In this document: positions 325 through 62,251 of the stretch, piece after piece | Position numbering within the stretch: the stretch's first letter is position 1 | Layout: each line of letters opens with the position of its first letter | DNA from: Rivularia sp. T60_A2020_040 | Lineage (GTDB): Bacteria > Cyanobacteriota > Cyanobacteriia > Cyanobacteriales > Nostocaceae | DNA: 64,000 nt | NCBI GenBank assembly: GCA_015272215.1 | Contig: JACYMD010000115.1 | Span: forward strand, 1 to 64,000 | Reading direction: 5' to 3' | The notes under the pieces: generated by a model | What the model was told of the DNA's origin: nothing | The model's input: the letters and a program-made list of their open reading frames with translations, nothing else | The model's database searches: none | Made by a program: the position numbers and the translations under genes

Positions 325-3150
325 TCACCATAACGGCGGAATTTCCCCCGGATTCTGACAAATAATTGGTAACCAAGTAGCACAAGGAAATTCATTTTCC
401 AAACCCTGTAACTTCTCTCTACCTGCTCTTACCGATTGATATAATGTTTTCCCATGAGAATATTCTTTTAAAAAGTTCTTCAGAAATTCTTGCGCGACTT
501 TATCCGGTACAGGTTCACGCATAACTATCATTTGCGGTATGTGTAAATCAGCTAAACTCGCAGCTAATCCTAAACCATCACAAGAATTAAATATCCCTAA
601 AGCCAAACCTTTTTCAATAGCTTTTTTCAAAGCATACTTTAACTCCGAAATAGTTAAAATATCAGATTTATTAAGATAAAAATACCCTTCTTCTTCTAAC
701 TTCCTTTCTATATCTCTTTCCTCCGTGTACTCAGAGTTTTTGTGGTTTTTTAATCCAGTAAAACTATGCCCCGCAAAAAACAGAATATTCCAATATTGTG
801 TCCAAAGTTGATCATTTAACTGTTGTCTTTGAGGCTCCACTAAAAAAGTAACCTCCGCATTTGGTAAACTTTCCAATAATTCTCGATCTTTTTGAATATC
901 AATTCCGCAACTGTTACCTAAAATTGCCAGAATTCTAATTTTAGTTTTTTTACCTTGAGAATATATAGATTTTTCTTTACTTTGATAACTAGGAGTGCTT
1001 AAAGCAATTTCAGCCTTGGGATATCTATCAAATAAATTCCACAATTGCAGCGGTAATTTTCGCACTTGAATATCTTCTGTTTGTAGAATTATTCTAATTG
1101 AGTCAGTAGGATTTAACTGTTCGAGTAGTTGTTCTTTTATAGGACGAAATATATCGGAATTAAGCCAATAATTAATATTTTCTCGCAATTTGTCCGCTAA
1201 TACAGAGCATTCATAAAAATAATCGCATCGACTAATATTAGTTATCTGTGTATCGGGGATATCTAAACGAAAATTGATTCCTAAACTTTGACGGTAAACT
1301 ATTTGCCATTGATGATAATATTCTTTTAATTTTGGTGCGGGTGGTAATTTACCTTTGGATTCAAAATAAGGATGATTTCCTTGTTTAGCAATCCGCAATG
1401 TTACGGTAAAGCCGCTATTTAAATCACCTTCATTTAAGTTGAGAATCACTACTTTTTCTTGTTTTTCACTATTAGGAGTAGCTATTTGCATTAAATTTCT
1501 TAAATCTGTTTGATGTTGACGATAAAGTGCGATTTGTTCGTCTTTACTTTGCAATTCTGCTTGATATCTTGCTTCTAAACTTTGTAATGCTAATTCATAA
1601 GTTTGAGTAAATGCAGTATGAATTTTTTGTTTATTAGTATGTTCGGGTACTTCTACTCGAACAACAACAACACCATCTCCTTTATTTTCAATACTTTGAA
1701 TTGCAATATCTGTATCTGGATTTTCTTCCCTAACTTTTGTTAAAGCAGTAGATAAAGCTTGTAAATCTAAACCGTTACGAAAAATTAAATCGACAGTATT
1801 TAATACTATTTTAAATAATTTAGCAAATTCACCTGATGCGAATTCTCCACTACTTGGGCGACGTTCTTTATGATTATTCAGCAAAAATATATAATCACAA
1901 TTTGTTTTTTCTAATTGGGTATTGCTATCAATATTCCAACCTTCCAAACAAGCTGCGGTTAATTTTGCTTGTTGAAAATTAGTATTTAATGCTTGAACTT
2001 TTGTTAAATTTGCTCTTTCTAAGCAAGCATTTTTAAAAGTAGCTAAACTAATATCTGCTTCGGTGAAATTTATATCATTAAGGTATGCATTTGTCAGGTT
2101 TGCTCCTTTGAGATTACAACCTTGATATGATTTATTGGCAGCTTTTTTAGTAACAAGTAAATTTCTTACTTGAGAATTATTTAAAATTGTGTTTCTAACT
2201 CTAGATAATTCCAGCTTTTTTACTAAATGAAAGTTAGTGCGAATTAAAATAGCATTTGTAAAATTAGTATTTTTCAGAATTGCATGAGATAAATTAGCAT
2301 CAGTTAAATCCGCATTACGAAAACTTGTTCCACCAATAGTAGAAATCACAATAGCAACAGTGCGAATTAAACGATATTTTTCATCCTCAGCTAAAGCTTT
2401 TATTCCAGAGTAAATGCCTAACAAACTAACAATAATAGCTAAGGTTATAGTTAATGAAAAAGCAATATTAGATACTTGAAATACAGCACTAAAAATAAAT
2501 ATTGATGTTGATAAACCTAAAATCCAAGCTACAACTTTTAGGATTTTTTCAAAAATAGATTCCGATGCAGACCAAAATACGACTAAAGCGATAGTAATAA
2601 CCCCAACCAAAGACCAAAGCCCCGCTCCAGCCGCACCCCAAGCCCCTAAAACCGCAGCTTTTAAACCAGAAGTTCCCCAAACAATAACTGCAATTAGCCC
2701 TACAATTACGATAATTACTGCTTCAGAACCAGCTAAAATAAACCAAACATCTGCTGCAAAACCTCGATAAAAAGTACCAATAAAGAAAAGTCCTAATAGG
2801 GAAAAAATGATGACAGAAGTTACCCATGCAACATCATTTGTAATGCCACTAATACCAGTAATGATACTTGTACTTTCACTGTAAATAGAAGATAAAGATT
2901 GGGAAGCAATAATTCCTGTTAATCCAGATGCATATCCACAAAGTGCTGCCATGAAAAATGAGAAAGCCATTAAAAATATGACTCGAAAATTTTGCACTCC
3001 GGCAACAGCATTATGGAAATTAGCACCTTTTAAAATAGCATTCGTGAAATTAGTACCGCGAATATCCGAGTAAGAAAAATCCGCTCCTTTTAAGTCTTGA
3101 TTTTTGAAAGAATAACCTTGAAGATTTTGATGAGAAAATTCTAAAGACAT
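325..3150 (-). CDS. Pentapeptide-repeat, multi-pass membrane, CHAT-domain (caspase-like) protein
   Basis: 941 residues from ATG at 3150. A longer frame reaches 3198, but its extra 16 residues come from a GTTGAAA-type tandem repeat, so I prefer 3150. Order of parts: pentapeptides (about 10-50), roughly six hydrophobic segments (about 56-255), a second pentapeptide block (about 275-430), a linker with coiled-coil tendency (about 450-560), and a C-terminal CHAT domain (about 610-941). The CHAT catalytic pair is visible: His795 in FFAGHS and Cys857 in FNSCDGLG. CHAT proteins are caspase-like cysteine peptidases, often with a sensing module fused in front. Here the sensing part would be membrane-embedded. 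The gene is last in a same-strand row after a sigma factor and a DUF1822-like protein. The protease activity and substrate are inferred, not shown. Confidence 0.85.
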   Translation of the reverse strand: MSLEFSHQNLQGYSFKNQDLKGADFSYSDIRGTNFTNAILKGANFHNAVAGVQNFRVIFLMAFSFFMAALCGYASGLTGIIASQSLSSIYSESTSIITGISGITNDVAWVTSVIIFSLLGLFFIGTFYRGFAADVWFILAGSEAVIIVIVGLIAVIVWGTSGLKAAVLGAWGAAGAGLWSLVGVITIALVVFWSASESIFEKILKVVAWILGLSTSIFIFSAVFQVSNIAFSLTITLAIIVSLLGIYSGIKALAEDEKYRLIRTVAIVISTIGGTSFRNADLTDANLSHAILKNTNFTNAILIRTNFHLVKKLELSRVRNTILNNSQVRNLLVTKKAANKSYQGCNLKGANLTNAYLNDINFTEADISLATFKNACLERANLTKVQALNTNFQQAKLTAACLEGWNIDSNTQLEKTNCDYIFLLNNHKERRPSSGEFASGEFAKLFKIVLNTVDLIFRNGLDLQALSTALTKVREENPDTDIAIQSIENKGDGVVVVRVEVPEHTNKQKIHTAFTQTYELALQSLEARYQAELQSKDEQIALYRQHQTDLRNLMQIATPNSEKQEKVVILNLNEGDLNSGFTVTLRIAKQGNHPYFESKGKLPPAPKLKEYYHQWQIVYRQSLGINFRLDIPDTQITNISRCDYFYECSVLADKLRENINYWLNSDIFRPIKEQLLEQLNPTDSIRIILQTEDIQVRKLPLQLWNLFDRYPKAEIALSTPSYQSKEKSIYSQGKKTKIRILAILGNSCGIDIQKDRELLESLPNAEVTFLVEPQRQQLNDQLWTQYWNILFFAGHSFTGLKNHKNSEYTEERDIERKLEEEGYFYLNKSDILTISELKYALKKAIEKGLALGIFNSCDGLGLAASLADLHIPQMIVMREPVPDKVAQEFLKNFLKEYSHGKTLYQSVRAGREKLQGLENEFPCATWLPIICQNPGEIPPLW

Positions 3151-3258
3151 TGGAACAAAAAATGAGTTGAAAGTTGAAAGTTGAAAGTGAAAAATCAATC
3201 ATAAATAAACAGGTAGTAACATTATGGTGCTTTAATCAAAACACAGTCTACAATCATC

Positions 3259-3364
3259 AATCACGGATTAAAAAGGATTAAAAGATTACACGGATTTTAA
3301 TTACCCATTACCAATTACCAATTACCAATTACCAATTCCCAATTACCAATTACCAATTACCAAT
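3259..3364. repeat. Left arm of an inverted dispersed repeat plus 7-bp STRR (ACCAATT)n
   Basis: The block starting AATCACGGATTAAAAAGG and ending in GGATTTTAATTACC is followed by about eight units of a 7-bp repeat (ACCAATT, with CCC variants). The same block occurs in inverted orientation at about 5038-5100, on the other side of the 459-aa gene. It fills the space between the CHAT gene and that gene. Confidence 0.85.
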
Positions 3365-3366
3365 GA

Positions 3367-4746
3367 TTAAATTTCAAAATCCTCTGTAATACTTGCATCT
3401 TCTAAAGCAACTTTAACGCTAAATTTTTCACTCCTTTCCCCATTAAATTTCAGTTGAATATAAACATCGGCATTTCTAGCTATAACTTCCCGTAAAATGT
3501 CTCCCGTTTCGGAAAGCAATATTAATTTTAAACCGGGAGGTAAATGTAGTAATGGTTTTGATGCTGCAATATCTTGGGTTTGTGCATCCGTAGAATAAAC
3601 TTGTAACAACACACCTACTTGGCTCGCGCCTTTTGGTACCAATGCTACTGCTAAGGCTACTGCTTCGCTCCTCAACTGCATTCCCAAATCGATTAGCTTA
3701 ACTCTTCTCACACCAGCTGCGGGGTTTCCAGGATTGATTTTCCACAAACTTTCTACTGCTACCCACAATGTTTCATCGTCTTGGGTATTGCGTATCAAGT
3801 TAACTAAAGCTTCTATTGCATTAACATTTCTAACAGCTATTTCTCCCAATCGCTTTGCAGCTTTTCTTTTATAATGTTCATCTTGCTCAGATATCTGTTT
3901 GATTAATATTGCAATTTCATCGGGGTTAGATTCAAAATCAACAGTACTTCTAGTGGCAATTGCCAAAGATGGTATTTGTAAAAGTAATTGCCATTGACTA
4001 TCAAATGTATTTTGCAGCCATTGACTCAGAAGATTAACTTTAGATTGCTTTTTTTCTGTTTCAAATAATAATTCTTGTTCTACCTGCAACGCTTCTTCTA
4101 ATACCGCTTCTGTAAATTTAATACTCTTTAAATAACTACGATAGGCTGCTACAGGTAAGCTTAATATATCGCTGCAAGCTAATTGATGTTGATGAAAATT
4201 AATAATTTCCAAGTTTTCTATGGCTTTTTTAGTGCCAATTTTTAAGCCAGAAAGTTGTATTTCTGATACTGTAGGTGGTTGATCAATTATTTGATGATGA
4301 TAATCTCCTACACTTAATAATAAATCGTAAACATTGCGTGATAATCGCTTACCCGTGGGTTGGAATAAATTACACGCAAACATTTCTTCTATTAACCAAG
4401 TTTGGGCTAATACATCTGTTTCTAAACCAGAAATATCTGAGGGAATCAATAAATCTACATCGTTCAAAAATTCAGTTTCCCCTGATAACAGCATTACCGA
4501 AATCACTTGCCATTCATTAGGAAATATATCGTTATGTTCTTCCGTAATAATTATTACATTAATCGGCAGTGAATTCCCCGCTAAAAACTGTCTTGCTGCA
4601 CCCGAATAAAGTTGATGCTGCTCTTCTTGAGAAAATTCTACAGGACAATGTATCGAGCGACTTACTTCCCAAATCTCTCCGGGTTGTGGCTGATTATGGA
4701 TACATTTTTGTCTCATATTATATGTGATTTTACTGAAATTACCCAT
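3367..4746 (-). CDS. DUF1822-like protein with HEAT-type repeats
   Basis: 459 residues from ATG at 4746; an in-frame ATG at 4716 (MRQKC...) is an equally plausible start, as neither has a clear Shine-Dalgarno sequence. The C-terminus (LPPGLKLILLSETG, YIQLKFNGE, FSVKVALED, SITEDFEI) resembles the end of the cyanobacterial DUF1822 family as I recall it. Residues about 270-350 (KRKAAKRLGEIAVRN, EALVNLIRN, LWVAVESLWKINP) look like two HEAT-type helical repeats, a protein-interaction fold. No enzyme motif is seen. It sits between a sigma factor gene and a CHAT gene on the same strand, so a partner, anti-sigma or substrate role is possible, but that is inference. Inverted copies of one dispersed repeat lie on both sides. 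Confidence 0.65.
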   Translation of the reverse strand: MGNFSKITYNMRQKCIHNQPQPGEIWEVSRSIHCPVEFSQEEQHQLYSGAARQFLAGNSLPINVIIITEEHNDIFPNEWQVISVMLLSGETEFLNDVDLLIPSDISGLETDVLAQTWLIEEMFACNLFQPTGKRLSRNVYDLLLSVGDYHHQIIDQPPTVSEIQLSGLKIGTKKAIENLEIINFHQHQLACSDILSLPVAAYRSYLKSIKFTEAVLEEALQVEQELLFETEKKQSKVNLLSQWLQNTFDSQWQLLLQIPSLAIATRSTVDFESNPDEIAILIKQISEQDEHYKRKAAKRLGEIAVRNVNAIEALVNLIRNTQDDETLWVAVESLWKINPGNPAAGVRRVKLIDLGMQLRSEAVALAVALVPKGASQVGVLLQVYSTDAQTQDIAASKPLLHLPPGLKLILLSETGDILREVIARNADVYIQLKFNGERSEKFSVKVALEDASITEDFEI

Positions 4747-4905
4747 AGGTTTGCATTCCCAGGCGAATCAGAGTTGCTTATCGCCGCTTACTTGTAGTTA
4801 TGGAGGTATCTATTACTTTTAACGAAAGAGATGATGATTCTATGTGCAGTTTTTTTAATCTTTACAAATTAAATTGGTAATTGGGAATGGGTAATGGGTA
4901 ATGGC

Positions 4906-5035
4906 TATAGCGGTTTTCATTTCAGTGCAATACAAATTTTACCTCACCCCGCCCTCCGGGCACCCCTCTCCTGTCGGGAGGAGAGGGGAAAGGGGTGAGG
5001 TTTTAGTGTATTGGACTCAACTGAAATTTGCTATA
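4906..5035. repeat. Palindromic MITE-like element
   Basis: A near-palindrome about 130 bp long. Outer arms CTATAGC...TTTCAGT..CAATAC and GTATTGGA..ACTGAAAT..GCTATA surround CCTCACCCC/GGGGTGAGG and a perfect inner 10-bp stem CCCCTCTCCT/AGGAGAGGGG, with a side hairpin GCCCTCCGGGC. There is no coding capacity. A second, interrupted copy lies at about 51226-51475. Confidence 0.75.
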
Positions 5036-5037
5036 AT

Positions 5038-5100
5038 TGGGAATTGGTAATTGGTAATTAAAATCCGTGTAATCTGTGTAATCCTTTTTAATCCGTGATT
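5038..5100. repeat. Right arm of the inverted dispersed repeat
   Basis: Its reverse complement reads AATCACGGATTAAAAAGG, then GATTACACGGATTTTAATT, then ACCAATT units, nearly identical (about nine in ten bases) to 3259-3320. The two arms are in inverted orientation around the DUF1822-like gene. Confidence 0.8.
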
Positions 5101-5121
5101 ATAATGGGGTATTTATAATTA

Positions 5122-5766
5122 TTACCACTGTTCCTGAGAACGTTTTCTGGTTGCTTTCGATTTACGAACTTGATTTTGCTCTTGCTTAACAGTTTCTGGC
5201 TGTACTAATCCTAATTCTTGATTCACACGCTCTAAAAGTTCTTTACGACGACGGGAAACCTCACCTTGAGTGATTTCCAACTCCAAAGCCAATTGAGTCT
5301 GTTTTTTACCTTCCACCATTCCCTGCCAAAGTTTTAAGTATCCCCGTTCGGGATACAATTGAGCAAGTTTTTTCATCGCTTCTTTGGCAACAATTACTAC
5401 ATCCGCACGTTCTACCGCATCTAATAAATCGAACTCCGAAGCAACGGTATCTAACAACGATACATCTGTCCCAGCAATGGTTTTATCTAAACTTTGACAG
5501 CTATTACGTGCTTCCTTACGCACAAAATCTATCACCGCATTTCGAGCTACTGTAGCTGCCCAGCAGTAAAAATTATACCCTTGATGAGTACGAAATTTTC
5601 CCGCTTTTACCGCTTGAAAAACCTTGATATGAGCCGTTTGTGCCGCATCTTCCCAAGACATTGAACTGTTATAAGTGTGTTTACGGGCAATTTTCTCCAC
5701 AAGCTGCCGATATTTCGAGTCAATTAATAGTTGTTCATTAGGTTCTACCGTCTGCTTTGAAGGCAT
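5122..5766 (-). CDS. Sigma-70 family RNA polymerase sigma factor (ECF-like)
   Basis: 214 residues. Region 2 is visible at about residues 15-90 (WEDAAQTAHIKVFQAV, YCWAATVARNAVIDFVRKEAR), the core-binding and -10 recognising part. Region 4 is at about 135-185 (KKQTQLALELEITQGEVSRRR), a helix-turn-helix for the -35 element. Region 1.1 and a full region 3 are absent, so it is of the small alternative (ECF-like) type. The C-terminal 25 residues are basic and glutamine-rich. The start at 5766 is fixed by a strong Shine-Dalgarno sequence 8 bases upstream. It is the first gene in a row with the DUF1822-like and CHAT genes, about 375 bp apart from the former, so a shared promoter is likely but not proven. 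Confidence 0.88.
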   Translation of the reverse strand: MPSKQTVEPNEQLLIDSKYRQLVEKIARKHTYNSSMSWEDAAQTAHIKVFQAVKAGKFRTHQGYNFYCWAATVARNAVIDFVRKEARNSCQSLDKTIAGTDVSLLDTVASEFDLLDAVERADVVIVAKEAMKKLAQLYPERGYLKLWQGMVEGKKQTQLALELEITQGEVSRRRKELLERVNQELGLVQPETVKQEQNQVRKSKATRKRSQEQW

Positions 5767-5774
5767 ATCGATAT

Positions 5775-5783
5775 CTCCTCCTT
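5775..5783 (-). promoter_or_regulatory. Strong Shine-Dalgarno site of the sigma factor gene
   Basis: On the minus strand AAGGAGGAG lies 8 bases before the ATG at 5766. It is one of the strongest ribosome sites in the window and fixes the start codon. Confidence 0.85.
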
Positions 5784-6142
5784 AACGAGGATTTATGTAA
5801 TACATTTAGTCGCACAAGTTGTAACGCGCAATATCTGCTGATTGTTCAAATGACTAATCGTGCAAAAAACGAGTTCCACTTAGAGCTATCGCCAACAACA
5901 AAATTTGTGAGGCTGTAACGCTTTTTACCTATACGTTTGAGGTGTTATCCTTTATGCATTTTGAGGATGCAAAACTTAATATGGTGTTCCCTGTACTAGT
6001 GTTTATTTAGACATCAAGATTTTTTGAGTGGATTTCGGATAAATTTCCGAATATTTTTGCGATTAAGAGCAGAATTGAAAACGGATGAGTTGGAAATTCC
6101 GACTCGGAGGTTGTATTACATATTCATTATTAAGATTATTAT
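5784..6142. other. Spacer upstream of the sigma factor gene
   Basis: About 360 bp between the stop of the large membrane protein and the sigma gene, both on the minus strand. It presumably holds the sigma promoter. I see no repeat or clear promoter here; a weak TGCAT...ATGCA dyad lies near 5955-5971. Confidence 0.4.
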
Positions 6143-9100
6143 TCACTCCCATTCTCTAAATTCATCATTAGTATTATTAAGCAAAGAAGTAAGTTGTTGA
6201 CGACGACTTTCAAAGTTGGCTGCAATGAATATTAAGCTAATTCCAACTAATAAACCTATTACCCATTTCAGGAAGGGATAACGCAGAATAGATATTACTA
6301 AATGATAGAATCCTGTGACTAAAAATGTTGCTGTACCAATATATAAAAAGGCGCGTATTCTTAATGCTAATCCCGCAAATATCGCAATCAAACTCAATAT
6401 TCCTGGTATTAAACCAGGTATTAAATAACTATTTTGATAAAATACAACTGCATATCCACAAATCATTCCACTACCTAACATTCGTAACCAGTGACGGAAT
6501 GATTTATTTTGCGGTAATTTGAGTTGCGGATCGAATTGAGCAATATATAGTAAGAATAAGCCGATTGAGGAAATGTACCATAAACCATCACTTAAATTTA
6601 AATCGCTAAATCCCCGCCATAAAGTCCAATTAATTAACCCTAAACTAATATAAGTAAACCGGAATTTTGTGGTAATTTTGGCGATGAAAATATAGTAAAG
6701 GGCTACTAGTAATATAGAAATAGAATAGACTTCTATTCTAGTTTCCCACAACGATATTAATGGAATAATGTATGCAGCAATTTGCCAAGGTTTTTTAGAC
6801 CATTTCCAACGTTGCCACGGTAAACTATAAAGTGAATAAGCAATTAAACAGGAAACTGCTGCTTGCCAAGGACGTATTTGTTCTAAGAAAAGACGTACTA
6901 TTGAAGTATCTGGTAAAAAATATCTTAAACAAGCAGCTTCTACTAAACCGATATAAACCCAAATTTCTGCTTGTGTAATGTTTCTTTGAACTGATTGTGG
7001 TGCTAATTCAAAACTATATCTTCCTTGAAATATTGCGTAGCAAGTTAATAACAATCCTGTTGCTAAAGCTAATATATTTGCTTTGATAGGATAATTAATT
7101 GCAGCTACTAATAAAACACTGCTTAAAGCCCAATGAAAATGAGCAAACATTTTCAATTCTTGGCGACTCAGATGTAGATAACTTATTAACCAAAACGATA
7201 ATAAACGATAAATATAGGCAATAACCGCAGCTAAGGTAGCTAAAGCAATCCAACCATCACCAATAGCACCCCCAGACAGTTGCTGAAGTTGATATACCAA
7301 AAGTTCGTAAGCCGCAATTGATACACCAGTAAGTCCTAAGTAAAGCAGCGGTTTTAATTTTTGATTGCGTCTTCCCACACCAATGACAATTAAAGCTACA
7401 CCTAGCGTAGATAAACCAGTCCAGCTATCAAAGGTATTTAAGCGTAGCAACAAGCCGAAAAGAGCGTATGACAAAGGTAGAATATGCCAGCGAATGGGAA
7501 TCGAAGATTGCTGCTTTTTACACCACCATTCTCCAAATAATTGCGTAATTAAACCCAAACAAATATTCGCAATCGCAACATATATAATTTCCTTGGTTTG
7601 AGTTGCCAATATTTCAACAACCAACAATTCTACACACCAGGCAATACCGTAGAATGTCGATTTTGTCGGTTGTTGCCAATGACGAAATGATAAAGCTACT
7701 AAAATAATCGCTGCGGAAGCTGCATATAGTAGAATATCTGGCGGAGCAAATAAGTAAACCGATACCGCGTGTAAACTTAGGAATAATAATTCACAACTGC
7801 ACAGCGTAGTTGCCCAAAAGTCTGTAGCAACTGCATATATATTTGCTAATTCGTTGCCGCGCTGCAATAATTTACGAATTACCCATAAACTCAGAATAAT
7901 TGCTGCTGACAACACAAACCAACCTGCAAACAATAATGAAGCACTTTCCCATACTGCTGCAAAAATCAAACTTAAAGCGAAACCTACCGTAATTACCGCA
8001 GCTAATTTGTTCTTTAAATATCTCGTATTCACAAACATCACCGCCGCACCCACTGCTAAACCGATTAATCTAGTTCCAGGTAACGGTAAAGTTAACAACT
8101 GAGCAAATATTACTGTTAAAGTGCTAATTGTGATTTGGTGATATTTTCTGTCTTCCCTATCACGACTACCAATGACTGTTAAAGTTACGGGTGTCACAAA
8201 CCAACTCAAGCCCCAATTTGATTGATTTAGATAAATACCATTCCAAATTGATTCTAGATTTGTCCATAACAGCAAATAACTCAAACCCGCAAGCACCAAA
8301 CCGATATGCCATCCACTACGTCGCCAAAATTCATCACCAACGCTAAATAACCATTCCCCAACCATCACCACCAAGCAAATAACCGCCCAAACCTGTTGTG
8401 AAATACTTGGGAAAAATAAATTTATCCAGGAAAAAAGAGTGAGTATAGCTGTAATGTGAGTTAGATAAATGAGGGGCGAAGAAAGGAAAGAAATAGAAGA
8501 AGATATTTCATTACTCCTATCCCTCGCTAAAATTAGCAATCTCTCTTTACCTCTTTCCTCTGCGCTCTCTGCGTCTCTGCGGTTTTTACTTCCGTAATCT
8601 TCTACCGGGAATAAATTAAAGCGCCGATGGGTTACTATAGCGAGGGTGATGGTAGATAAAAGTAAGTTTAGGGAACGTAATGTCGGATTTCCCAAAGCAA
8701 CAGCAGTTAAAGTAAACCCTAAAATTAACGTTAATAGTTCACCAAATCTTGCTAAATCAGGTTTATTTTTAATATAAAATCTATCCGTAAACACCACCAT
8801 AAAAATGATGTAGGGAAACAATCCCACACTCAATAATGCCCAAGGATAATTTTGAGAATTGGTAAATTGAGTAGCAGTTGTAATAATTGAAGACTGAAAT
8901 TCAACACTTAACAATCTCCAACCCAACCACATTGATTGCAAACCTACAACAAAGAAAGCTACAAAATCACTTTTTAAACTATATAAATGCAACCGACTAT
9001 TGAAAAACCATAAACCCAAACTGCTAATCGTAATTGCTTGTAAAGGATTACTTTCAACAGTTAGATACCAACCCAAAAATAATAAGACACCGCCTATTGT

Positions 9101-10147
9101 TTGTGATGGAAAAATGTCAGAAGAAAAACCCTCCTTGTCCCCTTGCCTCCTTATCTCCCCATCCTCTTCCCGTTGCCCTAACCAAGCTATTAACCATCCA
9201 TAAATACCAATGGCTAAACCTAAATTTGCAACATTTACCCCAGCACCAAAAATTGCTCGCAGTAATACCACCATTGAGGCATAAATAATTACTGTAGCAG
9301 TGATATTTTTTCCCCAATTCCTTTCAGATAAACCTTTTTTTTCTACTTCCTGTTGTCGAGTACGAATTTGAAAAACGGTAATAATAGTTGTTCCGATAAC
9401 AGCTAAATAAACTGCAATTAAGGGAAATCCTGTAAACTTCCAACCCCAATGCAGGTAACTCAATCCCAGAATATTTATTAAAGATAATTTACTAAATTCA
9501 ACACTTCCGCTAAATATTGATTGTTTAAAAAGTAATACAGTTATTCCCGTTAAAATAATTGACGCAATACCAACTAAAATCAAGTTGATCGGATTCTGCC
9601 ACAAACCAAAGCTATCCATTGCCCAAAAGTTAATTGGAATCAACAGCATTGCCACAGTATACAAAGCGCCACTTGTCAACCGTAAATTTGCTTGTTTACC
9701 AGTCCAAAAACCGAGTCCCCAAAAACCCAAGGTGTAAGCAAATAAAACCCCATATTGTAAAACAGGCGTAAATCTCTCCCACTGACTTGCAGCAAGCGCT
9801 CCAGAAGAAACTACTACACTAAACATTCCCAAAAATAGCAGCCAACGGACACTCAATTCTGCCCGTAGCGATCGCCATATTGTACTAAAAAAACTGGGTG
9901 TAGCCACTACCTTTGGCTTAAACGCAGTTGTACTAGGTTGGACAATCACTTGTTGTGTCTGCGTTTTAGCTACAGCTTCAGGCTGTAAAATCACCTGACA
10001 GACTAAATGTTCTTGACATATTTGCTTAACTTGAGCATCAGATATCAAATCTAAGCGCAACCATTGATCAAGCCCCTGCAATAAATGGGGATGTTCCCCA
10101 GGAAGCCTGACTTCAAATTTAAGCGAGCGGTTAAAATTGGATGGCAT
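6143..10147 (-). CDS. Large multi-pass membrane protein, DUF2157-like
   Basis: 1334 residues from ATG at 10147; a GTG four codons upstream is possible but less likely. The first ~90 residues are soluble (LLQGLDQWLRLDLISDAQV, QICQEHL), like the cytoplasmic head of DUF2157 proteins. The rest is a long series of hydrophobic helices, roughly 35 or more, with short loops. Function of the family is unknown. Two hydrophilic loops are encoded by dispersed genomic repeats: about residues 325-350 (GEIRRQGDKEG) and about 520-550 (NRRDAESAEERGKER). Both stay in frame and fall between membrane helices, so the protein seems to tolerate them. The gene stands alone between the PEP-CTERM gene and the sigma gene, all on the minus strand. 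Family assignment is moderate; the membrane nature is certain. Confidence 0.75.
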   Translation of the reverse strand: MPSNFNRSLKFEVRLPGEHPHLLQGLDQWLRLDLISDAQVKQICQEHLVCQVILQPEAVAKTQTQQVIVQPSTTAFKPKVVATPSFFSTIWRSLRAELSVRWLLFLGMFSVVVSSGALAASQWERFTPVLQYGVLFAYTLGFWGLGFWTGKQANLRLTSGALYTVAMLLIPINFWAMDSFGLWQNPINLILVGIASIILTGITVLLFKQSIFSGSVEFSKLSLINILGLSYLHWGWKFTGFPLIAVYLAVIGTTIITVFQIRTRQQEVEKKGLSERNWGKNITATVIIYASMVVLLRAIFGAGVNVANLGLAIGIYGWLIAWLGQREEDGEIRRQGDKEGFSSDIFPSQTIGGVLLFLGWYLTVESNPLQAITISSLGLWFFNSRLHLYSLKSDFVAFFVVGLQSMWLGWRLLSVEFQSSIITTATQFTNSQNYPWALLSVGLFPYIIFMVVFTDRFYIKNKPDLARFGELLTLILGFTLTAVALGNPTLRSLNLLLSTITLAIVTHRRFNLFPVEDYGSKNRRDAESAEERGKERLLILARDRSNEISSSISFLSSPLIYLTHITAILTLFSWINLFFPSISQQVWAVICLVVMVGEWLFSVGDEFWRRSGWHIGLVLAGLSYLLLWTNLESIWNGIYLNQSNWGLSWFVTPVTLTVIGSRDREDRKYHQITISTLTVIFAQLLTLPLPGTRLIGLAVGAAVMFVNTRYLKNKLAAVITVGFALSLIFAAVWESASLLFAGWFVLSAAIILSLWVIRKLLQRGNELANIYAVATDFWATTLCSCELLFLSLHAVSVYLFAPPDILLYAASAAIILVALSFRHWQQPTKSTFYGIAWCVELLVVEILATQTKEIIYVAIANICLGLITQLFGEWWCKKQQSSIPIRWHILPLSYALFGLLLRLNTFDSWTGLSTLGVALIVIGVGRRNQKLKPLLYLGLTGVSIAAYELLVYQLQQLSGGAIGDGWIALATLAAVIAYIYRLLSFWLISYLHLSRQELKMFAHFHWALSSVLLVAAINYPIKANILALATGLLLTCYAIFQGRYSFELAPQSVQRNITQAEIWVYIGLVEAACLRYFLPDTSIVRLFLEQIRPWQAAVSCLIAYSLYSLPWQRWKWSKKPWQIAAYIIPLISLWETRIEVYSISILLVALYYIFIAKITTKFRFTYISLGLINWTLWRGFSDLNLSDGLWYISSIGLFLLYIAQFDPQLKLPQNKSFRHWLRMLGSGMICGYAVVFYQNSYLIPGLIPGILSLIAIFAGLALRIRAFLYIGTATFLVTGFYHLVISILRYPFLKWVIGLLVGISLIFIAANFESRRQQLTSLLNNTNDEFREWE
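8509..8588 (-). repeat. Dispersed repeat inside the DUF2157-like gene (encodes NRRDAESAEERGKE...)
   Basis: On the minus strand this stretch begins AAAAACCGCAGAGACGCAG and ends GGGATAGGAGTAAT. The same repeat, about 80% identical or more, occurs outside genes at 60729-60810. Here it is translated in frame as a hydrophilic loop. Confidence 0.8.
9117..9180 (-). repeat. Second repeat-derived in-frame insert (encodes GEIRRQGDKEG)
   Basis: The minus strand reads as purine-rich GGGAGATAAGGAGGCAAGG and so on, encoding EDGEIRRQGDKEG. This purine-rich sequence resembles repeats commonly seen between genes in Nostocales. It lies in a loop between two hydrophobic helices. Confidence 0.55.
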
Positions 10148-10293
10148 AATACAATGCACTCTAATAGTACAATAATTACATCATCCCTTAGATATATATT
10201 TTCGGATGAGTTGTTTATGACACTTCTGCCGCTGAATGAAGTGGTTATCACAATTTCTAATTAACCGCTCGCTGATGCTTAAAAAATTACCAG

Positions 10294-11037
10294 TTACTTT
10301 TTCTTGCGCTTCAGATTCCTAACATTACCCAATAATGTACTCACAGCGAGCAAACCTAATATTCCATTGTGTTCTGGAACTTTCTGCACTGGAATAGGAA
10401 GTGGTCCGGCACCACTACCTAAAGTATTATTATTACTGGCTATATAAGTACCACCAGGACCACTTGGTGGTTGAGTTGTTTGCCAAAAGAAGGTGATTGT
10501 TTCTGGGTTAGAGGTATTTGTGTTCCAGCCTTCTCCTCCCGATACAGTCCATATTAATTTGCCATCATCAAGTTGTTTAATCTTGAACTTACCATCGGAG
10601 CCAAGTGCATTTTCTGCTTGAGAAAAGCTATAACCTACAACATTATTAAATCCGGAAGCATTAAAACCCAAACTGAATTGACTGACATCATTAAAAGGGA
10701 TAATGTTCTCTGGGAAAGGGAATGGAGCATCGTTGGGAAAATCAACACCGGGTGTAACTTGGTGTACGTAAGTATAAATTGTCCCTTGTGGATTTTGCGG
10801 TGGTACGCAGCTTGTAAAACCAGCAGGACAAAATACCCCGCTTTTCAAATCTCCAAGCCCTTGGTTGTTAGCATTGATTAAGGATGTTTCTACGAATGGT
10901 CCAACTGGTCCGACTATTGCAGCACCTAAACTTAAATTATCAAAGTTTGTCGCGATTATAGATGCAGCATTAGCCTTTTGTGGAAATAAACTCAACAAGG
11001 TCAATGCAGTGATTATCGAGAAAATATTTTTATTCAT
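10294..11037 (-). CDS. Exported protein with PEP-CTERM-like sorting signal
   Basis: 247 residues from ATG at 11037; a TTG nine codons upstream would spoil the signal peptide. Residues 1-25 form a Sec signal peptide (MNKNIFSIITALTLLSLFP, cleavage after KANA). The C-terminus has the three-part exosortase signal: VPEH, a hydrophobic stretch (GILGLLAVSTLLG) and a basic tail (LKRKKK). The usual motif is VPEP, so the final proline is replaced by histidine. The middle contains repeated Gly/Asn/Pro-rich segments and two cysteines, with no enzyme motif. Such proteins are exported and handled by exosortase, often ending up at the cell surface or in extracellular matrix. No exosortase gene is in the window. 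Confidence 0.7.
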   Translation of the reverse strand: MNKNIFSIITALTLLSLFPQKANAASIIATNFDNLSLGAAIVGPVGPFVETSLINANNQGLGDLKSGVFCPAGFTSCVPPQNPQGTIYTYVHQVTPGVDFPNDAPFPFPENIIPFNDVSQFSLGFNASGFNNVVGYSFSQAENALGSDGKFKIKQLDDGKLIWTVSGGEGWNTNTSNPETITFFWQTTQPPSGPGGTYIASNNNTLGSGAGPLPIPVQKVPEHNGILGLLAVSTLLGNVRNLKRKKK

Positions 11038-11344
11038 CAAAAATTTGCCGGTAAAATTACTCAAAGAAAAACAACATATGAATTAAGTAAATTCACTGTC
11101 AACATCATTAGATAATATTATTAGATAAATTTCAAATTAAATACTTAAAATTTGATGAGAATTTAAGCAGTGTTTACCAGATATTTATATTTAACGTTTT
11201 TAGTGCCATTGTACTAATTAATCCTTCTGACAACCAATTCCCAGACGGGATTCTACTCAATTCCGTCGAACTAATAACATATACTTAAAAAGATAAGAGT
11301 GAAAAGTTAAAATTCTTAACTCTTCACTCTCATCTTTTATAAAA
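11038..11344. other. Spacer between the PEP-CTERM gene and tRNA-Arg
   Basis: AT-rich, about 300 bp, presumably carrying the promoter of the PEP-CTERM gene. A dyad AAGAGTGAAAAGTTAA / TTAACTCTTCACTCT near 11295-11335 could form a hairpin just downstream of the minus-strand tRNA gene and act as its terminator. Confidence 0.4.
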
Positions 11345-11418
11345 CGGGCGGGAAGGGATTTGAACCCCTGACACCGTGGTCCGTAGCCACGTGCTCTAGT
11401 CCACTGAGCTACACGCCC
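11345..11418 (-). tRNA. tRNA-Arg (anticodon ACG)
   Basis: 74 nt. On the minus strand: acceptor GGGCGTG pairing with CCCGCCC (one mismatch), D arm GCTC..GAGC, anticodon stem CGTGG/CCACG with loop CTACGGA (anticodon ACG), and T arm AGGGG-TTCAAAT-CCCTT. No CCA is encoded directly after the discriminator base. No integrated element is attached to this tRNA. Confidence 0.95.
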
Positions 11419-11452
11419 TTACAACTAGTTAATCATAGCATATGTCAACCAC

Positions 11453-11971
11453 ATGACACAAGAAAATTTTCAAAATTCCTCAAATTCAGTTCCTGAGCAG
11501 GGTTTAACTCATTTGGATGATCACGGAGAAGCCCAGATGGTGGATGTATCTGCCAAAATTCCCACTGTTAGAGAAGCTGTAGCTGTTGGGAAAGTGCGAA
11601 TGAAACAAGAAACTTTTGCCGCAATTGAATCAGGAAACGCTCCCAAAGGTGATGTTTTAGCAACTGCAAGACTTGCTGGAATTATGGCTGCAAAACAAAC
11701 ATCGGCTTTGATTCCGTTATGTCATCCTTTACCGTTACAAAAAATTGAGGTGCAAATCACAGCTTTATCTCAACTACCGGGTTATTCCATTCAAGCAACA
11801 GTTAAAACCAAAGCTGAAACCGGCGTAGAAATGGAAGCTTTAACTGCTGTTTCTGTCGCCGCTCTGACTTTATACGATATGGCGAAAGCTTTAGAAAAAT
11901 CCATACAAATTGAATCAATACATTTAGTCAGTAAAAGTGGTGGTAAATCAGGAGATTATTCGCTGCAATAA
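11453..11971 (+). CDS. moaC: Cyclic pyranopterin monophosphate synthase MoaC
   Basis: 172 residues, the usual length for MoaC. It converts the MoaA product to cyclic pyranopterin monophosphate in molybdenum cofactor synthesis, in the cytosol. Signature stretches are present in order: [18 protein letters not shown] near the start, [10 protein letters not shown] (about 95-105), [16 protein letters not shown] (about 125-140), YDMAKALEK with the catalytic Asp and Lys, and KSGGKSGDY at the end. The gene starts 34 bases after the oppositely oriented tRNA-Arg. No other moa genes are next to it, so the pathway is dispersed. The protein would serve nitrate reductase and other Mo enzymes. Confidence 0.95.
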
Positions 11972-12108
11972 ACAATTAGTCAATGTAGATAGAATTTGGA
12001 AGAGTTTAGCAGCGAATTCATTCCCCGTTTATTTCGCCACACAAACAAGTAGAAAAATTTTTGCTACCTGCTTTACAATATGAGAATATTATTTACAAAT
12101 CTTAAAAA

Positions 12109-13041
12109 ATGCAGACCAGTACAGTTGCTTCTACAACTCCGATTCCCGGTAAATATTGGCAATGGCGCGGACATGAGGTTTACTACGTCAAAGCCGGAGA
12201 GAATTCCCAACGTCCGCCTTTACTATTAGTACATGGTTTTGGTGCTTCCACAGACCACTGGCGCAAGAATATCGCCGAATTGCATGATGATTTTGAAGTA
12301 TACGCGATCGACTTATTGGGATTTGGACGTTCGCAGAAACCCAAGTTACAGTACAGTGGTGATTTATGGTGCAACCAATTACACGATTTTATCACCCAAG
12401 TAATTGGTAGAAAAGCCGTATTAGCAGGTAATTCCCTCGGTGGTTATGCAACTTTGTCTGTAGCAGCACAACATCCCGATGCTGCTGCGGGTTTGGTATT
12501 AGTTAATAGTGCAGGTCCCTTCAGTCAAGACCAGCCAACAGTAGAGCCAGAAGCCTTACAATCAGAAATTGAACCACCTTTAAACGAGAAGCTACAGAAA
12601 TTATTCGGTGATTTCGTCAAGTTGATTTTCAAGCAACCCTTAGCTCAATTTATTTTATTTCAATACATTCGCCAACCTTGGGTAATTCGTCAAACTCTAG
12701 AAAAAGTTTATTTAGATAAAAGTGCAATTACAGAGCAATTAATCGAAGAAATCCGTCTTCCTTCCGGTGACAAAGGTGCTTTTGATGTATTTTGTTCAGT
12801 TTTTAGTACTCCCCAAGGAGAGAAAGTAGACGTACTTTTGCAGCAACTAACTTGTCCATTGTTATTGTTATGGGGAGAAGCAGATCCCTGGATGAATGCA
12901 AAAGAACGTTCTCAAAAATTTCACCAATATTATCCTCACTTAACAGAATATTATCTCAGAGCAGGTCATTGTCCCCATGATGAAGTACCGCAGCAATTAA
13001 ATTCATTATTGCGAGATTGGGTTTTTTCTATCGCTGAGTAG
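12109..13041 (+). CDS. Alpha/beta-fold hydrolase
   Basis: 310 residues. The fold's motifs are clear: oxyanion HGFGAS (42-47), nucleophile elbow GNSLGG with Ser109, acid Asp259 in LLLWGEADPW, and His287 in AGHCPHDE. A cap of about 60-80 residues lies between. There is no signal peptide or membrane segment, so it is cytosolic. Close relatives are common in cyanobacteria and plants; the substrate is not predictable (esterase, lipase or C-C hydrolase). The last 43 codons (12912-13040) occur again, with one mismatch, at 13884-14012, beyond a toxin-antitoxin pair. The gene is nonetheless intact and ends in TAG, while the duplicate ends in TAA. Confidence 0.85.
   Translation: MQTSTVASTTPIPGKYWQWRGHEVYYVKAGENSQRPPLLLVHGFGASTDHWRKNIAELHDDFEVYAIDLLGFGRSQKPKLQYSGDLWCNQLHDFITQVIGRKAVLAGNSLGGYATLSVAAQHPDAAAGLVLVNSAGPFSQDQPTVEPEALQSEIEPPLNEKLQKLFGDFVKLIFKQPLAQFILFQYIRQPWVIRQTLEKVYLDKSAITEQLIEEIRLPSGDKGAFDVFCSVFSTPQGEKVDVLLQQLTCPLLLLWGEADPWMNAKERSQKFHQYYPHLTEYYLRAGHCPHDEVPQQLNSLLRDWVFSIAE
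12912..13040 (+). repeat. 129-bp direct repeat, copy 1 (3' end of the hydrolase gene)
   Basis: It is identical to 13884-14012 except for one base (CACTTA against CAATTA). The distance from repeat start to repeat start is 972 bp, and the space between the copies holds a vapBC-type pair. Confidence 0.95.
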
Positions 13042-13883: not shown

Positions 13884-14013
13884 TCAAAAATTTCACCAAT
13901 ATTATCCTCAATTAACAGAATATTATCTCAGAGCAGGTCATTGTCCCCATGATGAAGTACCGCAGCAATTAAATTCATTATTGCGAGATTGGGTTTTTTC
14001 TATCGCTGAGTAA
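13884..14013 (+). pseudogene. Duplicated 3' fragment of the alpha/beta hydrolase gene
   Basis: This is the last 43 codons of the hydrolase at 12109-13041, with one substitution (His to Gln, in the PHLTE stretch) and a TAA stop. It has no start or upstream part and is a remnant. It marks the far side of the toxin-antitoxin segment. The near identity implies a recent event or ongoing gene conversion. Confidence 0.9.
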
Positions 14014-14020
14014 TAAAAGG

Positions 14021-14093
14021 TCAACTGTCAACTGTCAACTCCCAACTGTCAACTGTCCACTGTCAACTGTCAACTCCCAACTCTCAACTCTCA
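14021..14093. repeat. STRR, 7-bp units CAACTGT/CAACTCC
   Basis: About ten units of TCAACTG-type heptamers, followed by a short AATCCAAAATC run. The same heptamer array occurs at 62170-62240. It has no coding role and lies directly before the transporter gene. Confidence 0.9.
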
Positions 14094-14129
14094 ATCCAAA
14101 ATCCAAAATCTAAAATCCAAAATTATTTG

Positions 14130-61170: not shown

Positions 61171-62157
61171 ATGAATTGGTTGCTTTCTACTTCGGTAATT
61201 ATCCTGGCAATATTAATTATTAGCATCGCATTATACTTAATTACGGCTCGCCGCTATCAATCATCTGATTCTGTAGCTAATTCCTACGACGAATGGACTC
61301 AAGATGGTATTTTAGAATTTTACTGGGGTGAACATATCCACTTGGGTCATTATGGTTCACCACCGCAAAGTAAAGATTTTCTGGTTGCTAAATCCGATTT
61401 TGTCCATGAAATGGTGCGTTGGGGTGGTTTAGATAAATTACCTGCCGGTACCACCGTTTTAGATGTTGGTTGTGGAATTGGGGGTAGTAGCCGTATTTTG
61501 GCTGCTGATTACGGTTTTGATGTTACGGGTATTACCATCAGTCCGCAACAAGTCAGACGTGCTACTGAGTTAACCCCTCCAGGAGTGAGCGCAAAGTTTC
61601 TGGTTGATGATGCCATGGCGCTTTCTTTCCCCGATGCTAGTTTTGATGTAGTATGGTCAATTGAAGCTGGTCCCCATATGCCAGATAAAGCGGTTTTCGC
61701 CAAGGAATTAATGCGAGTGTTAAAGCCTGGTGGGATATTGGTTTTAGCTGACTGGAATCAAAGAGATGACCGGCAAAAGCCGCTGAATTTTTGGGAGAAG
61801 CCAGTAATGCGGCAATTATTAGATCAGTGGTCACATCCAGCTTTTTCCAGTATTGAAGGCTTTTCCGAACTTTTAGAAGCTACCGGATTTGTTGAAGGAC
61901 AAGTGATTACCGCAGACTGGACGCAAGAAACACTTCCTTCTTGGTTCGATACTATCTGGCAAGGAATAGTCAAACCCCAAGGATGGATGCGTTTTGGAGT
62001 ATCAGGTTTTATTAAATCAGTGCGGGAAGTACCTACAATTCTACTGATGAGGTTAGCATTTGGTACAGGACTTTGCCGATTTGGGATGTTCCGTGCAGTT
62101 AGAGCAAATTCAGTATCAAAATCAGCAGATGTTTCTATGGAAACTGCTCAAGTTTGA
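61171..62157 (+). CDS. MPBQ/MSBQ methyltransferase (tocopherol and plastoquinone-type quinones)
   Basis: 328 residues. An N-terminal membrane anchor (about 5-25, STSVIILAILIISIALYLI) is followed by YQSSDSVANSYDEWTQDGIL and YWGEHIHLGHYG, then a SAM-binding fold with VLDVGCGIGGSSR (96-108), GITISPQQV, DDAMALSFPDASFDVVWS and LKPGGILVLADW. This agrees closely, as I recall it, with Synechocystis Sll0418, the 2-methyl-6-phytylbenzoquinone methyltransferase of tocopherol synthesis. It methylates the aromatic ring at the membrane surface using SAM. The gene is monocistronic; a heptamer STRR (62170-62240) follows the stop. Confidence 0.92.
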   Translation: MNWLLSTSVIILAILIISIALYLITARRYQSSDSVANSYDEWTQDGILEFYWGEHIHLGHYGSPPQSKDFLVAKSDFVHEMVRWGGLDKLPAGTTVLDVGCGIGGSSRILAADYGFDVTGITISPQQVRRATELTPPGVSAKFLVDDAMALSFPDASFDVVWSIEAGPHMPDKAVFAKELMRVLKPGGILVLADWNQRDDRQKPLNFWEKPVMRQLLDQWSHPAFSSIEGFSELLEATGFVEGQVITADWTQETLPSWFDTIWQGIVKPQGWMRFGVSGFIKSVREVPTILLMRLAFGTGLCRFGMFRAVRANSVSKSADVSMETAQV

Positions 62158-62169
62158 TCAAGGTTTAAA

Positions 62170-62240
62170 GTCAACTGTCAACTGTCCACTGTCCACTGTC
62201 AACTGTCAACTGTCAACTGTCAACTGTCAACTGTCAACTG
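62170..62240. repeat. STRR, 7-bp units CAACTGT/CCACTGT
   Basis: About ten units between the convergent methyltransferase and Eis-like genes. Same unit as at 14021-14093. Confidence 0.92.
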
Positions 62241-62251
62241 GTGGTTCTCCT

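Follow-up and report, generated by a model that had tools for sequence, protein, structure and literature searches.

A putative protease-gated sigma factor switch with a MazF-fold anti-sigma candidate in a Rivularia locus that has no CRISPR genes beside it

How might a sigma factor be held, and then released, by a membrane-tied protease at a locus with no CRISPR genes beside it? This question is raised by a 64-kb stretch of DNA from the filamentous cyanobacterium Rivularia sp. T60_A2020_040 (the window), which forms the start of contig C57 in a 6.0-Mb genome and carries three linked minus-strand genes encoding an extracytoplasmic function (ECF)-type sigma factor (214 aa, 5122-5766), a 459-aa middle protein (3367-4746) and a pentapeptide/membrane CHAT protein (open reading frame (ORF) 325-3198, with a likely ATG at 3150 that yields 941 aa). 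The genes are separated by 375 bp (sigma/middle) and about 215 bp (middle/CHAT), and the far side of the CHAT gene is out of view because the window begins at the contig start. A preliminary description of this DNA had recognised three same-strand genes with an ECF-like sigma factor and a CHAT domain, on which the ORFs, NCBIfam TIGR02937 and Pfam PF12770 agree, and had assigned them the same three roles as the protease Csx29, its substrate Csx30 and a sigma factor in type III-E CRISPR systems.

In that type III-E system, Craspase, Csx30 binds CASP-sigma through its N-terminal part, and the CHAT protease Csx29 recognises and cleaves its C-terminal part (PMC10028731). In the type III system CalpL/T/S, CalpL cuts the anti-sigma factor CalpT into products of 23 and 10 kDa (PMC11417357, PMC12751052), the 23-kDa part remaining on CalpS (PMC11417357). 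Proteolytic sigma release by a CHAT or Lon protease has, in the available text of these papers, been worked out so far in CRISPR systems only. For the Rivularia locus, which shows no CRISPR genes nearby, we think it probable on balance, if by a small measure, that an anti-sigma factor of MazF fold, the middle protein, docks on a CHAT protease at the membrane and is probably cut by it, the three genes together forming a sigma switch gated by proteolysis.

Linkage of the two halves of the middle protein

A single scan of species genomes, using patterns inside the N-terminal domain of the middle protein (N-domain), gave 43 loci, all cyanobacterial by title. A sigma orthologue lay directly upstream of the N-domain gene and on the same strand in every one of them, with a gap of -6 to 436 bp. 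Long forms, in which the N-domain is joined to the C-terminal domain that matches DUF1822 (C-domain), were found in 21 loci (in L106 the C-part occupies the following ORF), and 20 of these 21 have a CHAT gene with an EACC2-like region downstream. The remaining 22 loci encode N-domain-only forms in ORFs of 202-292 aa, and none has CHAT next door. The preliminary description had proposed a co-occurrence check across cyanobacteria, and these counts are in its favour for the sigma neighbour and, among long forms, for the CHAT neighbour. Nineteen of the short forms are informative, having at least 4.6 kb downstream; L084 and L107 stop at a contig end and L092 has 1.2 kb. The contrast between 20 of 21 long and 0 of 19 short forms gives a Fisher p of 3e-10, a value that ignores kinship. 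Short-form L108 has a weak CHAT match 7.7 kb off. The closest named loci to the window's middle protein are in a metagenome-assembled genome (MAG) labelled Richelia sp. SL_2_1 (94% identity) and, next, in Rivularia sp. MS3 (72%).

Kinship was taken into account with a tree of 49 sigma plus N-domain pairs, built without the C-domain (the 43 loci, the second tandem copy in L071, the window, L051, L059, L060 and L065). The long/short label changes seven times on this tree, at least five of the changes being forced by the starred branches. Across five independent pairs, CHAT follows the C-domain in all five in nearly all of 200 pairings, and in four of five in three pairings; the sign test gives a median of 0.0625, the lowest value that five pairs permit. 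A search from the sigma side (matches at E up to 1e-10) hit 19 of 195 genomes of the order, the window's own included. Eighteen of the 20 listed sigma places outside the window were used, leaving out the second piece of one gene and a partial match at 3e-11; 13 of these 18 orthologues adjoin an N-domain gene, and 8 of the 13 also a CHAT gene.

Presence of the N-domain goes with sigma, that of the C-domain with the protease. Comparison of the loci shows the first pairing as fixed and the second as a linkage, and because sigma is never missing beside the N-domain while the C-domain comes and goes with CHAT, we argue that the middle protein would be both sigma holder and protease partner. The short forms amount to a natural experiment, in which the putative dock and the adjoining protease are missing together. 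By way of separate observation, the Richelia-labelled MAG of L071 carries two tandem sigma/middle/CHAT modules at 1559-12209, the copies falling in different tree clades, and the clade of L083, L086, L093 and L106 has a pilin-like gene of 162-163 aa between the middle gene and CHAT, with a GGAATA-type site (see below) within the middle gene.

Of 292 genomes in the phylum, 188 have a DUF1822 match, and the window's own genome has seven further DUF1822 loci. Two of these (L012 and L013) combine a small sigma-like gene and a DUF1822 gene with a CHAT gene whose product carries a periplasmic-binding domain at its C-terminus; a third (L016, 9283-11002) has a CHAT gene that is seemingly cut short or frameshifted beside a sigma-like gene and DUF1822. 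The DUF1822 proteins of all three match the window-type C-domain profile. We also surveyed 20 DUF1822 loci, one from each of 20 families and hand-picked among the matches listed: a same-strand upstream gene was present in 19 and CHAT lay directly downstream in 11, all 11 falling among the 15 loci whose middle protein matches the C-domain profile and none among the other five (Fisher 0.008). The window-type N-domain profile matched none of the 20 survey middle proteins, so that the other DUF1822 loci carry another N-terminal half. Fourteen of 24 upstream proteins (19 from the survey and five from the own genome) match the ECF model, and a profile of nine divergent upstream proteins aligns with the window sigma profile at 94% probability (E 1.3e-7). 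In family f31, a distant branch, many genomes of only 1.5-2.5 Mb within this phylum have a single weak DUF1822 match each (E about 1e-4 to 1e-17).

Domains of the three proteins and the predicted sigma contact

The preliminary description had called the middle protein HEAT/DUF1822-like, which holds for its C-terminal half and not for residues 18-155. Pfam DUF1822 (PF08852) matches at 1.5e-34 (120.1 bits against a cut-off of 25), covering residues 197-458 and only positions 145-370 of the 370-position profile, whereas no Pfam family, PF02452 (MazF/PemK) included, is hit at E up to 5 by the first 220 residues taken alone. The AlphaFold model, built from a 44-row alignment, has a mean predicted local distance difference test score (pLDDT) of 80.8 and a predicted template modelling score (pTM) of 0.50, and is laid out as a confident N-domain (core at residues 18-155, 4282-4695 on the minus strand, with helices then running to residue ~230), a low-confidence stretch, HEAT-like helices and a beta domain. 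The pLDDT falls below 50 at residues 232-236, 238-240 and 247-271, within a linker (about 232-271, 3934-4053, minus strand) that is a candidate cleavage region. The C-domain (3367-3927, minus strand), a candidate protease dock in light of its Pfam match, its model and its CHAT linkage, comprises HEAT-like helices at 275-337 and a beta domain at 346-458; the HEAT-like part is confined to residues ~275-340.

Residues 18-155 are predicted to adopt a MazF/PemK-like fold without a Pfam family. Foldseek matched them to the MazF structure 6kyt_E (E 9.6e-6, TM-score 0.73 by target length), a second structure comparison to 6kyt_D (Z 11.6, rmsd 2.8 over 115 residues), and the predicted N-domain of a short-form relative gave the same MazF fold (Z 10.0). 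The N-domain sequence profile, run against PDB sequences, returned MazF as all five of its top matches, each weak (E 0.014-0.052). Profile-profile alignment with cyanobacterial MazF-like proteins was weak as well (probability 7% global, 2% local), because a usable ORF was present in only two of 12 fetched loci; the fold assignment therefore leans on the structure searches of the long and short forms and on the PDB profile search, not on this alignment. The highest-scoring structure match of the whole middle protein (Z 11.9) was set aside, being a designed HEAT-like repeat that falls on the helices past residue 274 and not on the N-domain. The preliminary description had found no recognisable anti-sigma domain, a statement that the N-domain would overturn by analogy: CalpT is reportedly a MazF homologue, so that the fold predicted here would be that of a studied anti-sigma factor.

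At two positions the N-domain aligns, weakly, with an Arg and a Thr present in two MazF-like proteins from cyanobacteria. The first, position 62, holds Arg in 41 of 44 rows, the three exceptions (the window, L066 and the first L071 copy) having Ile; at position 88, 43 rows have Ser and one has Thr. These may be the catalytic MazF residues, as mapped by the weak alignment.

The sigma gene scores 58.9 bits against NCBIfam TIGR02937 sigma70-ECF (cut-off 42.9) and matches Pfam Sigma70_r2 at 6.9e-13. Its C-terminal tail reads R-S-Q-x-x-W, and a tail of the form R[ST]xxxW lies inside the last 10 residues of 44 of the 49 sigma orthologues, the window included. A closer kinship with the type III-E sigma factors was considered and dropped: NF041236 scored 36.9 bits against a cut-off of 100, lower than the general ECF model, and is not specific because it also matches seven of the 24 other DUF1822-linked proteins. 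A mirror-tree correlation between sigma and N-domain (r 0.79) was likewise dropped, as it proves nothing past shared descent.

Contact between sigma and the N-domain is predicted from a relative, L097, in which the two genes share one frame; translated through the stops, they yield a single fused chain whose spacer is 47 codons long. AlphaFold placed this chain (66 rows) with a pTM of 0.79 in the best of five models (mean pLDDT 82.2, 55 residues below 50), compared with 0.50 for the two-domain middle protein alone. A high pTM across two proteins suggests that their relative placement is predicted with confidence, and we read the model as support for, not proof of, a sigma-N-domain contact. The preliminary description had proposed predicting such a complex, and its expectation is supported by the best model and less evenly across the set, as discussed below. 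That the sigma tail R[ST]xxxW is used as a MazE-like peptide is a guess.

The CHAT protein (325-3150, minus strand) has a pentapeptide - transmembrane - pentapeptide - EACC2-like - CHAT layout, as judged from its ORF, Pfam matches (pentapeptides 1.2e-27; CHAT PF12770 9.2e-10) and alignment. A hydrophobic, probably membrane-spanning region of Kyte-Doolittle segments occupies residues 52-255 (2386-2997), a conserved region before CHAT spans residues ~565-740 (931-1458) and is present in 12 of 12 aligned proteins, and the CHAT peptidase domain lies at 394-864, all on the minus strand. We call the pre-CHAT region, which the preliminary description does not mention, EACC2-like by its position and after PMC8195603. 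His795 (codon 766-768) and Cys857 (codon 580-582), numbered on the 941-aa form, are intact, as the preliminary description had said, and do not vary among the 12 CHAT proteins aligned. The best PDB sequence match of the EACC2/CHAT region is the SAVED-CHAT structure 8tl0, which is weak (E 0.054), and the window protein has no SAVED domain among its Pfam matches. The EACC2/CHAT module is C-terminal in the window protein and N-terminal in the own-genome paralogues L012, L013 and L014.

Promoter-like motifs and candidate targets

Of the 49 sigma-middle pairs, the 39 with a gap of more than 70 bp were searched for promoter-like patterns and 10 were set aside. A strict CATA/CGTTAA-type pattern, with spacings of 12-20 allowed, occurred before the middle gene in 21 of 39 and always at a spacing of 16 (200 shuffles: mean 0.97, maximum 5); before the sigma gene it occurred in 1 of 49, which is chance level. 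A relaxed pattern, framed after inspecting the strict-pattern sites, was found at spacing 16 before the middle gene in 29 of 39 (Markov mean 0.46, maximum 4), in five or fewer at the other spacings from 10 to 22, and before the sigma gene in 0 of 49. The motif NCATA-N16-CGTTAA recovered by this comparison lies ahead of the middle gene, not of the sigma gene. The window site, CACATA-N16-CGTTAA at 4819-4846 (minus strand), about 70 bp 5' of the middle-gene ATG, has the best position weight matrix score in the window (17.2 versus 12.0 for the next), with the window copy forming part of the training set. The motif has the look that would be expected of a sigma-dependent promoter of the holder gene. 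Across the own genome the CATA-type pattern gave two matches, one of them the window's own, versus four in the reversed control, and hence no regulon signal.

A second motif, GGAATA-N16-YGTTA, is post hoc because it was spotted among weaker matches of the first. Within the 43 loci it matches 36 times, whereas six other spacings average 0.33; a single clade (L083, L086, L093 and L106) supplies 11 of the 36, and in L077 and L108 a match is the promoter of the middle gene itself. A stricter form, run over ten whole genomes (~83 Mb), matched 13 times in seven genomes and 0 times as a reversed pattern, nine of the 13 being sites already within the fetched loci around the sigma gene. The genes behind GGAATA-type sites include two subtilases (L088 and L101), an S41 peptidase (L094, 390 bp away) and secreted-looking small proteins, and 64-76-aa peptides that share the start ML(L)QI(I/T)D(L/I)EN lie 194-675 bp behind sigma-type sites in L090, L091, L095, L100 and L102. 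By eye, these peptides resemble bacteriocin precursors; they have no NCBIfam match.

A candidate switch, its rivals and its setting

We infer the following order of events. The MazF-fold N-domain would keep the ECF sigma factor inactive, while the C-terminal DUF1822 half would dock on the EACC2/CHAT protease, itself anchored at the membrane by the pentapeptide/transmembrane part at its N-terminus. On sensing a signal, that part would activate the protease, which would then cut the middle protein, most likely in linker 232-271 or in a C-domain loop such as 386-404, with loss or degradation of the N-domain. The freed sigma factor would transcribe the middle and CHAT genes from the CATA-N16-CGTTAA promoter and so reset the switch, and in relatives it might also drive, from GGAATA-N16-YGTTA promoters, a handful of nearby genes that encode secreted proteases and small peptides.

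Several results weigh against this mechanism. L072 keeps the C-domain without CHAT, the sole exception among the 21 long forms, and the independent long/short events are few, one of them perhaps due to the long branches L059 and L060 meeting and maybe being misplaced. Five of the 18 sigma orthologues (L054, L058, L061, L062 and L063, the last with a sigma frame interrupted by stops) have neither an N-domain neighbour nor CHAT. Among DUF1822 loci of the own genome, two (L015 and L017) fit the C-domain profile with no CHAT match nearby, L014 has a CHAT-CHASE2 gene one gene away from a DUF1822 protein that fails the profile, and L011 has a sigma gene and DUF1822 with neither a C-domain profile match nor CHAT; four of the 15 survey loci with a C-domain have no directly downstream CHAT. 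The five fused-chain models are uneven (mean pLDDT 82.2, 77.5, 71.6, 70.8 and 66.2), and the contact is judged from the pTM of the best. The strict GGAATA-type site is found in none of three of the ten relatives' genomes and 0 times in the window's own genome, where a looser form has three matches and the control also three. Searches on the middle protein, Foldseek included, gave no Csx30 match, which is no proof of absence. The likeness in roles to Csx29, Csx30 and their sigma factor drawn by the preliminary description accordingly fares unevenly: the parallel of protease, middle protein and sigma factor is backed by comparison (the 43 sigma neighbours, CHAT beside 20 of 21 long forms and never beside short ones, and the five independent pairs), and loci with an upstream gene and DUF1822 that lack an adjacent CHAT stand on the other side.

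The rivals differ mainly in what the protease would cut and what the N-domain would do. The N-domain may be an anti-sigma factor while CHAT cuts itself or other proteins, the middle protein serving as a mere coupling adaptor. Autopeptidase activation is a published proposal for EACC2-caspase systems (PMC8195603), and C-domains without an adjoining CHAT exist; we nevertheless hold this arrangement to be improbable, since CHAT varies in step with the C-domain and since, in both studied protease/anti-sigma/sigma sets, Craspase and CalpL/T/S, it is the middle protein that gets cut, as far as the text available for them goes. The predicted MazF fold also invites a toxin-antitoxin-like reading, in which the N-domain is an RNase neutralised by the sigma tail R-S-x-x-x-W much as by a MazE tail, and CHAT frees the toxin. 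The strong conservation of that tail suits it, as do the Arg in 41 of 44 rows and the Ser/Thr in all 44 at the positions aligned with the MazF-like Arg and Thr, but Ile replaces Arg in the window, L066 and L071, so that the window copy is probably not an RNase, and the site assignment comes from a weak alignment and general MazF chemistry. We regard this reading as decidedly unlikely.

It is about as unlikely that CHAT acts like a caspase in executing cell death or phage defence, with the sigma branch as a secondary response: EACC2-caspase genes have been discussed as conflict systems (PMC8195603) and SAVED-CHAT is a defence protease (PMC11229360), but the PADLOC models matched none of the four proteins scanned at E up to 1, the sigma factor is the most constant partner, and short forms live without an adjoining CHAT. 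Chance adjacency, which the gaps of 375 and ~215 bp and the repeats between genes might suggest, is contradicted by sigma in 43 of 43 and CHAT in 20 of 21 loci and is exceedingly improbable.

The switch proposed here, a MazF-fold holder gated by a CHAT protease, would by analogy join a fold like that of CalpT and a two-part layout like that of Csx30 to a protease of the CHAT type. With Craspase it shares a CHAT protease with His/Cys, a two-part middle protein and an ECF sigma factor, and differs in that the window CHAT bears pentapeptide/membrane parts and that the window has no CRISPR-like array. With CalpL/T/S it would share the protease, anti-sigma and ECF sigma roles, whereas CalpL, a Lon protease, senses a CRISPR messenger through SAVED and the window has CHAT and a DUF1822 C-domain. 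SAVED-CHAT (8tl0) is weakly matched by the EACC2/CHAT region of a protein with no SAVED domain among its Pfam matches. Compared with MazF/PemK mRNA interferases, residues 18-155 share the fold, in contrast to the missing Pfam match, the Ile at the aligned Arg position and a partner that is sigma, not an antitoxin. The N-domain is likened to CalpT, reportedly a MazF homologue, by its predicted fold.

Kaur et al. (2021) described genes with EACC2 and caspase domains whose neighbours encode an ECF sigma factor and a DUF1822 protein, and put forward autopeptidase activation for them (PMC8195603); the gene neighbourhood is for that reason already known. In those EACC2-caspase neighbourhoods the constant module is N-terminal and the variable part C-terminal, the order being reversed in the window. 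The domain logic, the MazF fold and the promoters appear to be new, being absent from the available text of PMC8195603 and from a literature search of a limited library, and the Csx29/Csx30 analogy goes further for these loci than that text does. The locus suggests that the logic of proteolytic sigma release is general, a receptor-driven signalling device in cyanobacteria with a holder of toxin fold; it would offer a testable role for part of DUF1822 and name the probable promoter of the sigma factor. A broader and rather doubtful extension is a cyanobacterial family of caspase-gated sigma switches that is not tied to CRISPR and is built from interchangeable parts, from which Craspase and CalpL/T/S would be recruitments. 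Any sigma-holding N-domain would then combine with one common protease dock and with CHAT proteases carrying interchangeable sensors, a scheme to which we give the same low credence. Under this scheme, the groove of the MazF fold may grip the sigma tail R-S-x-x-x-W as MazF grips MazE.

The setting agrees in part with the absence of CRISPR stated in the preliminary description. Direct repeats in the 64-kb window include no CRISPR-like array, one side of the locus being hidden by the contig end, and no Cas family was found among 13 window proteins (ten of them neighbours) scanned with Pfam. Elsewhere in the own genome, two clusters of type III-like CRISPR genes of the RAMP kind (PF03787, Cas7-type) lie on contigs C53 (46906-54483) and C37 (24762-29905), with none on C57, and these may leave a link to CRISPR in trans. 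Near-heptamer repeat arrays of AATTACC and GTCAACT type occur at 3285-3375, between the middle gene and CHAT, and at 14006-14096 and 62156-62246. On the plus strand at 1-315 lies the gene of a PIN-domain (VapC-like) protein (PF01850 7.9e-8), truncated at the contig start so that just the C-terminal part is encoded, and 5' of the sigma gene the minus strand at 6143-10159 encodes a 1338-aa multi-membrane protein with a weak DUF2157 match under the cut-off.

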